Assembly: GCA_024642335.1 (NCBI GenBank)
Contig: JAHEBH010000017.1
Coordinates: forward strand, 1-43,575
Reading direction: 5' to 3'
DNA length: 43,575 nucleotides
Origin: Erythrobacter sp.
GTDB lineage: Bacteria; Pseudomonadota; Alphaproteobacteria; Sphingomonadales; Sphingomonadaceae
Shown here piece by piece: positions 26,462 through 32,710 of this stretch; position 1 is the stretch's first letter; every line of letters begins with the position of its first letter. Below the pieces are notes generated by a model that made no database searches, was not told the origin of the DNA, and was given only the letters and a program-made list of their open reading frames with translations. Position numbers and translations under genes: made by a program.

Positions 26462-26863
26462 ATGATTATCGGCATGGGATCGGACCTCTGCAATATCGAG
26501 CGAATCGCCAATTCGCTGGAGCGATATGGCGAGCGTTTCACGCAGCGGGTCTTCACCGATATCGAGAACGCCAAGGCCGCGCGGCGTCCGCACACGCGCG
26601 CTGGCACCTATGCCAAGCGATTTGCCGCCAAGGAGGCGTTCAGCAAGGCGGTTGGCACCGGTTTCAAGCGCGGCGTCTTCATGAAGGATATTGGCGTGGT
26701 GAATGCGCCATCAGGTGCGCCCACACTTCACCTGCAGGGCGGCGCGGCGGCGCGGCTGGCCGAGCTGACGCCCGAGGGGTATGCGGTGACAATCCATCTG
26801 ACCCTGACAGACGATCACCCCTGGGCGCAGGCCTTCGTCATCATCGAGGCGCACCGGCTGTGA
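26462..26863 (+). CDS. acpS: Holo-[acyl-carrier-protein] synthase
   Basis: A 133-residue phosphopantetheinyl transferase that moves 4'-phosphopantetheine from CoA onto the serine of acyl carrier protein. The Mg-binding Asp is in [20 protein letters not shown] and the Glu in [19 protein letters not shown]; both are intact. The start is ATG 26462, 4 bp after pdxJ. Its TGA stop overlaps the GTG start of lepB. It links cofactor metabolism to fatty acid synthesis and lies in the pyrE-pdxJ-acpS-lepB run. Confidence 0.96.
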
Positions 26864-27774
26864 CTGTCACGGAGACCCAGGCAGAGATTCCCGGCCAGGA
26901 GGACAAGAGCGTCAACTGGGTGGCGGAAATCCGCGGACTGGCGCTGATGCTGTTGGGCGTGCTTGCCTTCCACACACTGATCGCGAAGCCCTTCTACATT
27001 CCTTCCGCCAGCATGGTGCCCAATCTCATGGTCGGTGACCGGCTGATCGTGTCCAAATATCCCTATGGCTGGAGCTGGGTTTCGGCGAGCTTCCATATTC
27101 TGCCACGCGCCAACTGGCGCATCGCACCGGCGACGCCCGAATATGGCGATGTAGTGATTGTCGTGCCGCCCGACCGGGCGGAAGATTACATCAAGCGCGT
27201 GGTTGCCCTGCCGGGCGACACGATTGCGCTGGTCAACGGGCAGATCATCCTCAATGGCGAACCGGTTCCGCAGTCGGTCGAACCACCCGTGCGCCTGCCT
27301 GCCGACAACGACAACCTCTGCCTGAGCGCCGGCGGGTTCGAGCATTCCTGCCTCGATGATTTCGAAGCTTATCGCGTGCGGCTGGAGGATGGCAGCGAAG
27401 TTTATGAGCCGCCGACGCTGCGCGAGACTCTGCCCAATGGCGCCACCTATCTGATCATCGATCACATTCCGGGCAACGCATACGACAATATGGAACCCAT
27501 CACCGTGCCCGACGGCCAGGTGTTCCTGATGGGCGACAATCGCGACCATTCGGCCGACAGCCGCGCACCTTCCGCGTTCGACTTTCCCGGTGGCAACGGC
27601 CTGGGTGGCTCCGTGCCCATTGCCGATATCGGCGGCCGGGCGGAATTCATCACCTTCTCGCTGGACGGCAATGCCACGATCAATCCCTTGACTTGGCTAC
27701 CCGCGCTGAGGCCTGATCGCGCCTGGACCAGTCTGCGGCCCGCATTGGCGGGGGAAGGATCGCGCGATGAGTAA
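26860..27774 (+). CDS. lepB: Signal peptidase I
   Basis: 304 residues, starting at GTG 26860 in a GTGA overlap with acpS. One N-terminal membrane helix ([19 protein letters not shown], about 26-45) anchors the catalytic domain in the periplasm. The Ser/Lys dyad is Ser51 in [14 protein letters not shown] and Lys112 in [12 protein letters not shown]. The C-terminal [11 protein letters not shown] is the family box E. It removes signal peptides from exported proteins. acpS-lepB adjacency is common in alphaproteobacteria. Its stop overlaps the next gene by 8 bp. Confidence 0.96.
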
Positions 27775-28903
27775 CGACACACCGGAAAACCAGCCCGACC
27801 TGGGAGTGGGACCTTCGCGCATTGCCAATGCGGAAGTCCGCCACGAGGTTGCGCGCGCCGGGGTGTGGATCGCCATGGTCAGCCTCGCCTTCCTGGCCAT
27901 CTACATTTCGCAAAGCCTGCTGGTGATCTTCGGCGGCATGGTCTTTGCTACCATGGTCGATGGCGGCGCACGCCTGCTGGGCCGCGTGCTGAAGATCGGA
28001 CGCACATGGCGCATTGCCATAGTGTTGGCAGCTGGCTTGGCCTTTGCGCTGTGGCTGGGCTGGTTTGCGGGCTCCACCCTCTCGCAAGAGGCAGCGCAAT
28101 TCCCCGCCATCATCGAAGAACAGGCGCGGCAGTTCTTTGCCTGGCTGCGCGAACAGGGCTTTCAGATCGAACTGGGCGATGTGCAGGGCCTGATCGGCCA
28201 GGCGTTGAGCGGGTTTGGCACAATTACCCGCGCATTGGGCGGCATATTGGGCGGCCTCGCCACATTGCTGCTCATCGTCATCATCGGCATCTATGTCGCC
28301 ATAGAGCCTCGCCTGTACGAGCGAGGGATGGCGTGGATGTTGCCCCGCGAAAAGCGGCGCGACTTCCATATCCTCCTCGCCCGCATGGGTTTCACCATGC
28401 GGCGGCTGATGTTCGGGCGCCTGGTCGGCATGGTATTCGAAGGCTTCTTCACCTACGCCATGCTCGCTCTTTACGGCGTGCCGATGGCGGCGCTGCTGTC
28501 CATCCTGACCGGCCTGCTCGCCTTCATTCCCAATGTCGGGGCCTTCATTTCGGGCGTGCTGATGGTGATGGTGGGCTTTTCGGGCGGAACCGACATGGGG
28601 CTCTACACCATCTTCGTCTATTTCCTGGTGCAGAACATCGACGGCTACATCATCATTCCGATGATCGCCCGCAAGACGGTGGACCTCGCGCCTGCGCTGG
28701 TGCTCGCCGCGCAGCTCGTCATGGGCATATTGTTCGGCGTGCTCGGCCTGTTCCTGGCCGATCCGCTGCTCGCGATGATAAAGGTGGCGCTGGAGCGCCG
28801 GTCCGAACGAAATGCGGAAGACGATGCCGCAGCCGTTTGCGAAGCCGAACGCCGCGCGCAGGAGGAAGTGGCAGCTGCAAGCGCCAGCACTGCCAATGCG
28901 TAG
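27767..28903 (+). CDS. AI-2E family (PerM-like) permease
   Basis: 378 residues, polytopic membrane protein with about eight hydrophobic helices. Family markers are SLAFLAIYISQSLLVIFGGM near the start, a long amphipathic periplasmic region, FGRLVGMVFEGFFTYAMLAL and LLSILTGLLAFIPNVGAFIS, and near the end VQNIDGYIIIPMIARKTVDL. The family includes TqsA, but substrates vary; autoinducer export should not be assumed. A charged cytoplasmic tail rich in Ala and Glu closes it. It overlaps lepB and the DUF3089 gene by 8 bp each. Confidence 0.9.
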   Translation: MSNDTPENQPDLGVGPSRIANAEVRHEVARAGVWIAMVSLAFLAIYISQSLLVIFGGMVFATMVDGGARLLGRVLKIGRTWRIAIVLAAGLAFALWLGWFAGSTLSQEAAQFPAIIEEQARQFFAWLREQGFQIELGDVQGLIGQALSGFGTITRALGGILGGLATLLLIVIIGIYVAIEPRLYERGMAWMLPREKRRDFHILLARMGFTMRRLMFGRLVGMVFEGFFTYAMLALYGVPMAALLSILTGLLAFIPNVGAFISGVLMVMVGFSGGTDMGLYTIFVYFLVQNIDGYIIIPMIARKTVDLAPALVLAAQLVMGILFGVLGLFLADPLLAMIKVALERRSERNAEDDAAAVCEAERRAQEEVAAASASTANA

Positions 28904-30503: not shown

Positions 30504-30568
30504 TGAGTCCCCGCGAAGGCGGGGACCTCGTGATGCAGGCCTGCGGTCCCCGCCTTCGCGGGGACTCA
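30504..30568. repeat. Palindromic repeat, copy 2 (between convergent genes)
   Basis: A 24-bp arm at 30504-30527 (TGAGTCCCCGCGAAGG...) and its perfect complement at 30545-30568 enclose 17 nt. The outer arms share the GTGAG/CCCGCG design of the copy at 18487-18556. It fills the gap between ruvX and the convergent cupin-like gene and can form a hairpin in either transcript, so it may act as a bidirectional terminator. Confidence 0.88.
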
Positions 30569-30572
30569 CGCC

Positions 30573-31475
30573 TCAACAGGCCTCGGCAAGCTCTCGCCTC
30601 CTTCTGGTCGCCTCGCCCGCAATCAGCCGGCTGCCATTGCCCTCGGCCTGCCGCCACAATTCATCCCGTTTCTCCGCATCGAGAATGCCCGCCTGTGCAT
30701 CAAGCGCGGCCAGCCGCATCCGGTCGCTCACATGGCTGCGGGCGAAATTCTCCGCCAGGTCGCGCGCATCCTCACCGCCCAGGCCCACCGCCACGCGCAG
30801 GAAAATCTCGCCGCAACCGGGGCTGACAATGCCCGAAATCTCGTCCATTTCGACATCGAACTTGTACTGGTCGAGCCAGCCCTGCGCCCCGCCAGAATGC
30901 ATGATGTTGACCGAAACGGAGAGGCTTTCGGGCGGGATTTGCGAATGGACATCCACATGCGCGCGGTAGTGCATCAGCTTTCCGGGACTTAGCGTGGATC
31001 GTTCGATAAAACGCAGCCCTGCCTTTTCGCCGACCACGCCGTCCACCGCAGCGTAATCGTATTCGTAATAGTCCGAAGCATAGCCCGGGCCGAAGTACCC
31101 CACCGTCAGAAAGTGGAAGTTATGGTCATGCGGCAGTTCATAGGAGAATGCCGAACGGCCCGAGGCGCGAAAGGCATATTCGTCGCGGCTGGGCCAGACA
31201 TTGGCGCGCATGAAGAAGTCCCGGCCGAGCTGCGAAAGCATGATGACCTGGGCGCCATAGGCGCTGGCATCTTCCGCACCGCCTGTCCCGCTCTTCAATT
31301 CGTCGAGCATGATAGCGGCCAGGAATTCGCGGTTGTTGCCCAGGCGGCGCAGCCATTGCGCGGCGTGGAGCAGGCTTTCTTCCTCGGCGGGATCAAAACC
31401 GTGTTCTGCCAGCGCGGCTTCGCAGTCGCCCAGCGAACAGGCCGTGTCATCCAGATATTCGATTACCCTCGGCAT
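30573..31475 (-). CDS. Unrecognised cupin-like protein of a peptide operon
   Basis: 300 residues with no family I can name. The first 60 residues are helical. The centre looks like a double-stranded beta-helix with a metal site: PHDHNFHFLTVGYFGPGY gives His116, Asp117, His118 and His121, and PGKLMHYRAHVDVHSQIPPE gives His169, His173 and His177. This suggests a cupin or 2-oxoglutarate oxygenase-like enzyme binding Fe or another metal. The tail is helical and charged. GGAGG lies 7 nt before ATG 31475, which overlaps the preceding gene by 13 bp. It may modify the 53-residue peptide encoded first in the operon; that is inference. Confidence 0.75.
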   Translation of the reverse strand: MPRVIEYLDDTACSLGDCEAALAEHGFDPAEEESLLHAAQWLRRLGNNREFLAAIMLDELKSGTGGAEDASAYGAQVIMLSQLGRDFFMRANVWPSRDEYAFRASGRSAFSYELPHDHNFHFLTVGYFGPGYASDYYEYDYAAVDGVVGEKAGLRFIERSTLSPGKLMHYRAHVDVHSQIPPESLSVSVNIMHSGGAQGWLDQYKFDVEMDEISGIVSPGCGEIFLRVAVGLGGEDARDLAENFARSHVSDRMRLAALDAQAGILDAEKRDELWRQAEGNGSRLIAGEATRRRRELAEAC

Positions 31476-32428
31476 GGGGCTGCCTCCACTTGCAACAATT
31501 GGGGATGGTCATCGATCAATTGCGTGCGCAGGGCACGCGCCGGATCGCCCAGCGGATCGATCCCGCTTGCGGCTATCGCGGACAGCGCCGCGAAACCTGC
31601 TTCGCTATCGAGTGCGAGGCATTCGCGCAGGCATTGCCACCTGAGCGATTCGTCGCTTTCGGTCCGGACCATGACGGCCATGATTGGCGCCGCTTCGCCG
31701 CACTCCATGCGCCCGAGAAGCGCCACCATCATCTCCCGTCGGCTGGTCGCCAGCGATCCGGCGGACTGGTGCAGGAGCTCGCCAGTCTGGCGGCAATATT
31801 CACGTCCGGGTTGCGGATTTTCGCTGGCCTGCAACAGGCGCAATGTGACGAGGCGCCTGCTCACCTCGTGCGCCAGAACAGTCTCGCTCGTGCAATCGAA
31901 GCCGAGCCGCACTCCCGGCCGCAGCACGACCTCTTCCTCGGCAAACCGCACCCGCTCGCGCGGTCCGCGAATGCGCAGGATTCGCGCCTGCGCCTCACCC
32001 GCCAGCGTGGCATCATAGCGCAGCGCATCCGAGAAGGTGGCGCAGGGAAAGTCGAATCGTCCCGGTTCCCGCGCCTGGAGCAGCAATTGCGCCCTGCCCG
32101 ATTTGGCCAGCAGCAGCGTGGACGCCCGCCCGTCGAAGCCGTGACGGAAGGGCGGGTGGGCGAACGGCAGCCGGGCCATGGCCGCGCACAGGTGCCGCGC
32201 CAGCGATTGCGCCAGCGTTTCGGCTCGTCCCTGTCCCGTGAATATTTCGTCCAGTGCCGGGCAATCTTCCAGCGATGCGCCGGTGCCGAACAGCTGGAAC
32301 TGCTCCAGCACCTGCGCAACACTCGCTTCGCCGCACCAGGCATCGCAGGCCTGTTTCACCGCGGCCTGGGCCTGGCGCTGCGGAGCACGATCGCGCCGCA
32401 GCGCCGCGATGGCGGGATGAACTCGCAT
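31463..32428 (-). CDS. Unrecognised helical-repeat protein of a peptide operon
   Basis: 321 residues from ATG 32428; a TTG at 32437, closer to a GAGG, would add three. No family is recognised. The N-terminal part is Ala-, Gln- and Cys-containing helix, and the centre is mixed (RASTLLLAKSGRAQLLLQAR). A TVLAHEVSRRLVTLRLLQ segment resembles an HE-x-x-h motif without the second His. Residues about 230-310 look like HEAT-type helical pairs (MVALLGRMECGEAAPIMAVM, ESLRWQCLRECLALD). It starts 14 bp after the small peptide gene. It might hold the peptide or partner enzyme, as repeat proteins often do. Confidence 0.72.
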   Translation of the reverse strand: MRVHPAIAALRRDRAPQRQAQAAVKQACDAWCGEASVAQVLEQFQLFGTGASLEDCPALDEIFTGQGRAETLAQSLARHLCAAMARLPFAHPPFRHGFDGRASTLLLAKSGRAQLLLQAREPGRFDFPCATFSDALRYDATLAGEAQARILRIRGPRERVRFAEEEVVLRPGVRLGFDCTSETVLAHEVSRRLVTLRLLQASENPQPGREYCRQTGELLHQSAGSLATSRREMMVALLGRMECGEAAPIMAVMVRTESDESLRWQCLRECLALDSEAGFAALSAIAASGIDPLGDPARALRTQLIDDHPQLLQVEAAPCRG

Positions 32429-32442
32429 CGCTGCCAACAGCC

Positions 32443-32604
32443 TCAGATGATGCCGCCGCCCGGAGGCGCGGTTTCGTAGACAACGGTGGCAATCACCACC
32501 ACTGTGTCGTCATGTCCGGGGTTGGGAGTGCGCAGGGATCCGAACAGGCCGGTTACGGTGTTGAGATCGGGCAGGCTTGTCAGATCGATCTTCGGAAATT
32601 TCAT
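32443..32604 (-). CDS. 53-residue peptide, possible precursor of a modified peptide
   Basis: A short gene with a strong ribosome site: GAGGAG, 7 nt before ATG 32604. The product has a lead (MKFPKIDLTSLPDLNTVTG), a centre FGSLRTPNPGHDD, and a hydrophobic, beta-branched C-terminal block TVVVIATVVYETAPPGGGII. No Cys, signal peptide or membrane helix is evident. A lead plus distinct C-terminal core followed by two enzyme-sized genes is the layout of ribosomally made, modified peptides. It could instead be a small structural partner of the two proteins. The ribosome site and operon position support a real gene. Confidence 0.72.
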   Translation of the reverse strand: MKFPKIDLTSLPDLNTVTGLFGSLRTPNPGHDDTVVVIATVVYETAPPGGGII

Positions 32605-32680
32605 CAACAGTCTCCTCTTACCGGCAGAGCACAACGCTCCACCGGCCAGAAGAGATGCCGAGGCACCTGCCTGTTTTGAA

Positions 32681-32710
32681 ATTAAACTATTGTAATCGTC
32701 ATTATTTCAA
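32681..32710 (-). promoter_or_regulatory. Candidate promoter of the peptide operon
   Basis: TTGAAA (32710-32705) and TTTAAT (32686-32681) with an 18-bp spacer on the minus strand, in a notably AT-rich patch (about 32675-32710). The -35 contains the stop codon of the preceding siroheme-type gene. Transcription from here would give a leader of about 70 nt. Confidence 0.45.

Follow-up and report, generated by a model that had tools for sequence, protein, structure and literature searches.

The window analysed here, a 43,575-nucleotide stretch of an Erythrobacter sp. contig (JAHEBH010000017.1), carries on its minus strand a three-gene unit spanning positions 30573-32604, in which a peptide gene, P, is followed by the genes for two larger proteins, A and B (Table 1). 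An earlier reading of this DNA, made from the letters alone and referred to below as the sequence-only reading, had called these three minus-strand open reading frames (ORFs), and the sequence confirms its coordinates and its lengths of 53, 321, and 300 residues. P and A are separated by 14 nt in the window and by a median of 15 nt in 76 loci of relatives in named genomes, while the A and B frames overlap in 73 of 74 such loci; the 13-nt overlap in the window suggests translational coupling. The good ribosome sites that had been claimed are present ahead of P and B (GGAGG at 31487-31483), but that of A is weak (GAGG, 12 nt 5′ of its ATG). Likewise, the proposed AT-rich promoter is half upheld: positions 32640-32710 upstream of P have 42% GC vs 63% across the window, but a sigma-70 consensus scan found no minus-strand site. 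None of the three window proteins matched a known family model in the libraries searched, Pfam, PADLOC, and PHROGs included, so the two large proteins did not turn out to be members of a known unrelated family; among homologues of A and B only HEAT models recur. A defense or phage identity was rejected, as PADLOC and PHROGs gave nothing at E ≤ 10 for the window proteins.

Table 1. Coordinates of the P-A-B unit and its signals in the window
Feature	Positions	Strand	Details and basis
P, 53-residue peptide	32443..32604	-	ATG 32604, stop 32443; translated ORFs
A, 321 residues, paralogue of B	31463..32428	-	ATG 32428, stop 31463; predicted helices, cupin barrel, and HEAT-like C terminus
B, 300 residues, predicted cupin of cysteine/thiol-dioxygenase fold with helical C terminus	30573..31475	-	ATG 31475, stop 30573
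AGGAGA, likely ribosome site of P	32611..32616	-	Sequence
A/B frame overlap, 13 nt	31463..31475	-	Sequence; translational coupling suggested

The three genes are conserved as a unit. About a third of the genomes sampled from the same family (75 of 199) carry B, counting the window's own and one marginal match; the marginal B of one locus (L049) was not confirmed. P and A are both present at all 30 of the 30 best B loci in the family, window included. In a second set, which shares genomes with the first and consists of the best 80 among 394 confirmed relatives from named genomes (titled as Sphingomonadales or broader groups), P-A-B stand in order in 79; the 80th (L120) starts inside A at a contig end, and the A frame is short in a few (L084, L097). 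Profiles give the same picture for the 199 family genomes, in which A matched 75, three of them weakly and in the HEAT part only (G071, G091, G117), and P matched 72 (E ≤ 0.01, one marginal). All 72 genomes with a strong A have B, and 69 have P by profile; in the remaining three (G044, G057, G076) a peptide ORF is seen. Two further genomes may hold decayed copies: G018 has a P match and neither A nor B, and in G191 P lies beside a B fragment, with a weak A match of 26 positions. A small peptide ORF also precedes A in 39 of 40 divergent loci (L031-L048, L050, L070, and L199-L218, with L202 cut by its contig), which is weaker evidence, because many of these peptides were recognized visually by their position, length, and pattern; a further candidate, L195 (G515), is doubtful.

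Outside its family B is rare. At the order level it matched 98 of 296 genomes, those listed all belonging to the same family; at the class level it occurred in 5 of 385, one from another family, and at the phylum level in 12 of 349, two from outside, with 2 of 54 genomes positive in the family to which one of the outsiders belongs. It also lies on two plasmids, of Alteromonas stellipolaris and of a Vibrio, the latter copy (L231) having no identified P. No phage record matched B, and of 17 candidate stretches that the Alteromonas B picked out by pattern in viral contigs, none was confirmed. Against eight relatives, the dN/dS of P is 0.13-0.30, similar to A and B (by a simple counting method, with high dS for A and B). 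Because this ratio is low and the three genes stay together, chance is excluded as the source of the arrangement, and the peptide is conserved and co-occurs with both large proteins in relatives, as the sequence-only reading requires. A short precursor gene and a putative modifying enzyme, presumably B, are thus conserved together, which is one mark of ribosomally synthesized and posttranslationally modified peptides (RiPPs).

The predicted structure of B is a cupin barrel flanked by helices and not the β-helix proposed before. The two histidine clusters that had been noted (116-121 and 169-177) are present as H116/H118/H121 and H169/H173/H177, and the candidate metal ligands, an HxH pair and a later His, are H116, H118, and H177, retained in 142, 142, and 141 of 142 homologues, respectively. 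The solved folds closest to that of B (4qma, 4tlf, 8vni, and 6xb9) are those of cysteine dioxygenase (CDO) and bacterial thiol dioxygenases, and polar residues near the site are kept (D175 in 141, Q179 in 140, S186 in 142, and N190 in 139 of 142), as is Arg90 (140 of 142), which probably corresponds to the Arg that binds the carboxylate in CDO. The equivalence of the metal histidines of B to those of CDO rests on a nonsignificant profile alignment. Window B has no Pfam match at E ≤ 10, 25 B homologues matched ten families between them (E ≤ 1) without CDO_I being one of these, and CDO_I has no match in the window genome. When the B profile was run against the sequences of solved structures, the hits were no better than chance. 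Short versions of B (225-234 residues) that end after the cupin occur on the Vibrio plasmid (L231:7974-8651) and in two genomes of another family (L227:8001-8702 and L233:8001-8699).

A is paralogous to B and is predicted to have a helical N-terminal part, a cupin in the middle, and HEAT-like helices in its last third only; the HEAT-like helices of the sequence-only reading therefore hold for that third, while the middle is a second predicted cupin. HEAT_2 is matched in the C-terminal part by 14 of 20 A homologues (E ≤ 1, best 6e-9) and is not matched by the window's own A (E ≤ 1), and among the sequences of solved structures the A profile matched designed helical repeats. None of 135 A homologues retains all three metal histidines. 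A is a sister of B that has lost these metal histidines.

Among 91 distinct P sequences of the window clade, P4, L11, P12, G19, and G22 are invariant, and D33 (90 of 91) and Y43 (88 of 91) are nearly so. The conserved parts are residues 1-23 and, less strictly, 32-44, and the most variable are 24-31 and 45-53; the C-terminal APPGGGII, earlier singled out as a conserved block, is thus among the least conserved positions. Because conservation falls in two blocks, P can be read as a leader-like module (residues 1-23) and an aliphatic block with Asp32-Asp33 and Tyr43, separated by a variable linker and followed by a variable C-terminal end. In other clades, inspection by eye shows a recurring hydrophobic-acidic start bearing LPEL or a similar motif, and a Val/Ile-rich end. 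The P of the window starts with Met-Lys and, as had been stated, contains no Cys. Several sister-clade peptides (L033, L039, L040, and L044-L048) have EVGGxxC or EVAGxxC ahead of the aliphatic end, with ETVGAAC in one ORF of the Alteromonas locus (L230); these Cys-bearing peptides possibly represent a second type of target. In L204, the sole B whose third histidine is changed (to Arg) goes with a P whose aliphatic block is atypical, a hint that the two may change together.

We lean slightly toward the view that P-A-B is a dedicated peptide-modification unit, with B as an iron oxygenase, A as its partner, and P as the substrate. In this model, B would have the cysteine-dioxygenase fold with helices added at the ends and would work as a mononuclear iron oxygenase with three histidine ligands; A, its metal site lost, would pair with B as a second cupin surface and, together with the helical ends, hold residues 1-23 of P; and the aliphatic block after the linker (DDTVVVIATVVYE in the window) would be presented to the iron of B and oxidized. 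The likeliest chemistry would be side-chain hydroxylation or attack at the near-invariant Asp33 or Tyr43. Iron binding, the pairing of A with B, the role of P as substrate, and this chemistry are inferred from the observed genes, their conservation and co-occurrence, the A/B paralogy, the predicted folds, and the histidines kept in B and lost in A. There is precedent for peptide oxygenases that work with a noncatalytic recognition partner, as described in PMC12257519.

Several observations weigh against this model. The profile of B aligns with CDO_I without significance (hhalign E 0.11, probability 0.5%), the Foldseek match covers only the middle of B (query TM 0.39), and the catalytic triad of CDO, Ser-His-Tyr, is replaced by S186, S188, and N190. 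Two of the 135 A homologues retain a His at the third metal site. No P residue is common to every clade, and Cys is present in only 6 of the 91 window-clade P sequences, which rules out cysteine as the common target there; with Cys this rare, thiol chemistry is not carried over. The operon contains no transporter or protease, as the sequence-only reading had noted, although in the wider neighborhood an AI-2E-family transporter (27767-28903) and a signal peptidase (26860-27771) lie on the other strand, 1.7 and 2.8 kb from B, both among housekeeping-type genes. The window genome also has no C39 peptidase by a search that was positive in 8 of 14 controls, and double-glycine leader processing by such an enzyme was accordingly rejected. 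The unit occupies a settled place on the chromosome beside housekeeping genes: in the named relatives, convergent ruvX follows B within 1.5 kb in 62 of the 71 loci whose sequence reaches far enough, cysG or lysA lies ahead of P in 47 of 63, and in the window the gene ahead of P is siroheme-synthase-like (CysG_dimeriser match). Antibiotic peptides, in contrast, usually show a patchy spread. Finally, the sister clade has a gene for an OmpR-type winged-helix protein, read from the same strand and placed where B ends, in 22 of the 41 divergent loci that carry B (E ≤ 1e-5; L202 is cut), an identity checked against Pfam for two of them; no such gene was found after B in the window-clade loci searched at the same threshold. 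The layout that first suggested peptide modification, a small peptide beside a putative metal enzyme, recurs in relatives, once beside transporters, but the OmpR-type gene and the settled place do not fit it as well.

Those transporters are found on the Alteromonas plasmid, where the order is HlyD, MacB ATPase, MacB permease, two small peptide-like ORFs, A, B, ABC ATPase, and ABC-2 permease, with the ABC ATPase gene overlapping B. In the incomplete gene table of this plasmid, all but one gene is hypothetical and the two small ORFs have no entry; no second plasmid copy of this type was found, and the arrangement is known from a single record. The product would probably be exported in Alteromonas, whereas in the window clade, given that the operon has neither exporter nor leader peptidase, it would probably serve as a signal or act intracellularly. 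Pump-like genes noticed by eye near P-A-B in the two genomes of another family (L227 and L233) differ in order and were not counted.

The OmpR-type gene supports the first of three alternatives, an oxygen or redox sensor, in which B oxidizes P and the state of P, bound to A and B, sets the activity of a transcription factor. This shares its first step with the modification model and differs in purpose. Plant cysteine oxidases (PCOs) and ADO oxidize N-terminal cysteines, and if P-A-B were a sensor it would be a bacterial counterpart of oxygen sensing in plants and animals. We judge this unlikely, since no such regulator was found in the window-clade loci searched, the P of the window and of most relatives lacks the Cys on which PCO and ADO act, and the Alteromonas copy sits among transporters. 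Less likely still is that the substrate of B is a small thiol or another metabolite, with P as a small structural or regulatory subunit. The closest solved folds use cysteine, 3-mercaptopropionate, mercaptosuccinate, or ergothioneine, Arg90 is kept, and the CysG_dimeriser gene ahead of P points to sulfur assimilation, but the CDO triad is lost in B, the two conserved blocks and variable linker of P resemble recognition and target, and the other steady neighbors (lysA, argH, ruvX, and lepB-like) have no thiol role. Least probable is a noncatalytic complex in which both cupins stably bind P and the B histidines hold a structural metal: A is under selection although its site is lost, so the fold has a binding role, but the polar residues around the B site (D175, Q179, S186, and N190) are kept as in enzymes.

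Compared with known systems, P-A-B shares with the CDO_I family (PF05995) the fold predicted for the middle part of B and also for A, the order HxH...H, and an Arg on the preceding strand; it differs in the missing Pfam match of B, in Ser-Ser-Asn for Ser-His-Tyr, in the added helical ends, and in having intact and decayed gene copies beside a peptide gene. P-A-B also resembles ribosomal peptide clusters in which an iron oxygenase has a separate recognition partner, such as pbs (biphenomycin; PMC12257519), in that a small peptide with a leader-like conserved start adjoins an oxygenase and a candidate noncatalytic partner, and in the transporters of the Alteromonas copy; unlike there, B is not a multinuclear nonheme iron-dependent oxidative enzyme (MNIO), A is a decayed paralogue and not a recognized RiPP recognition element (RRE) protein, and the operon has no protease. 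No paper in the open-access library searched was recognized as describing P-A-B. Peptides served by an oxygenase of their own are already known; no CDO-fold enzyme that fills this role with a decayed paralogue turned up in that library.

We tentatively propose, as a less than even possibility, that P-A-B is the first example of a new peptide-modifying class, in which a CDO-fold oxygenase that no longer acts on thiols, heterodimeric with a decayed leader-binding paralogue, oxidizes an unactivated residue in the aliphatic stretch of a genetically linked peptide. The product would in one lineage signal inside the cell to an OmpR-type regulator and in another be exported. The thiol-dioxygenase fold is known for small thiols and N-terminal cysteines; if B oxidizes P, this fold has been turned into a peptide-modifying enzyme that uses intact and decayed copies as a pair, and the unit would offer a new way to look for modified peptides. 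These genes, unnamed in the libraries searched, occur in roughly one in three of the family genomes sampled.

Other features lie nearby. Between B and ruvX, at 30507-30565 of the window, are two copies of the inverted repeat GTCCCCGCCTTCGCGGGGAC, which occurs at 21 places in the genome at ≤2 mismatches (control, 0) and is therefore a dispersed repeat resembling repetitive extragenic palindromic (REP) elements, perhaps with a terminator role as well; at a permissive threshold, Rfam gave two matches over it, far below gathering scores. On the Alteromonas plasmid, a 567-residue protein without a Pfam match (L230:615-2318) precedes a Yip1-like protein and the HlyD/MacB genes. By eye, a YidC-like gene adjoins the unit in L031/L196 and L198, which we take as a shared place; past it, downstream of the divergent A-B pair, lie two genes, one with a CHAT domain (E 5.5e-23) and one of 360 residues with no Pfam match (L196:4063-6908). 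Elsewhere in the window, the gene at 36933-37778 matches Dioxygenase_C (intradiol dioxygenase, E 3e-7), and the adjoining gene at 37933-38466 matches Host_attach/baeRF family 12.
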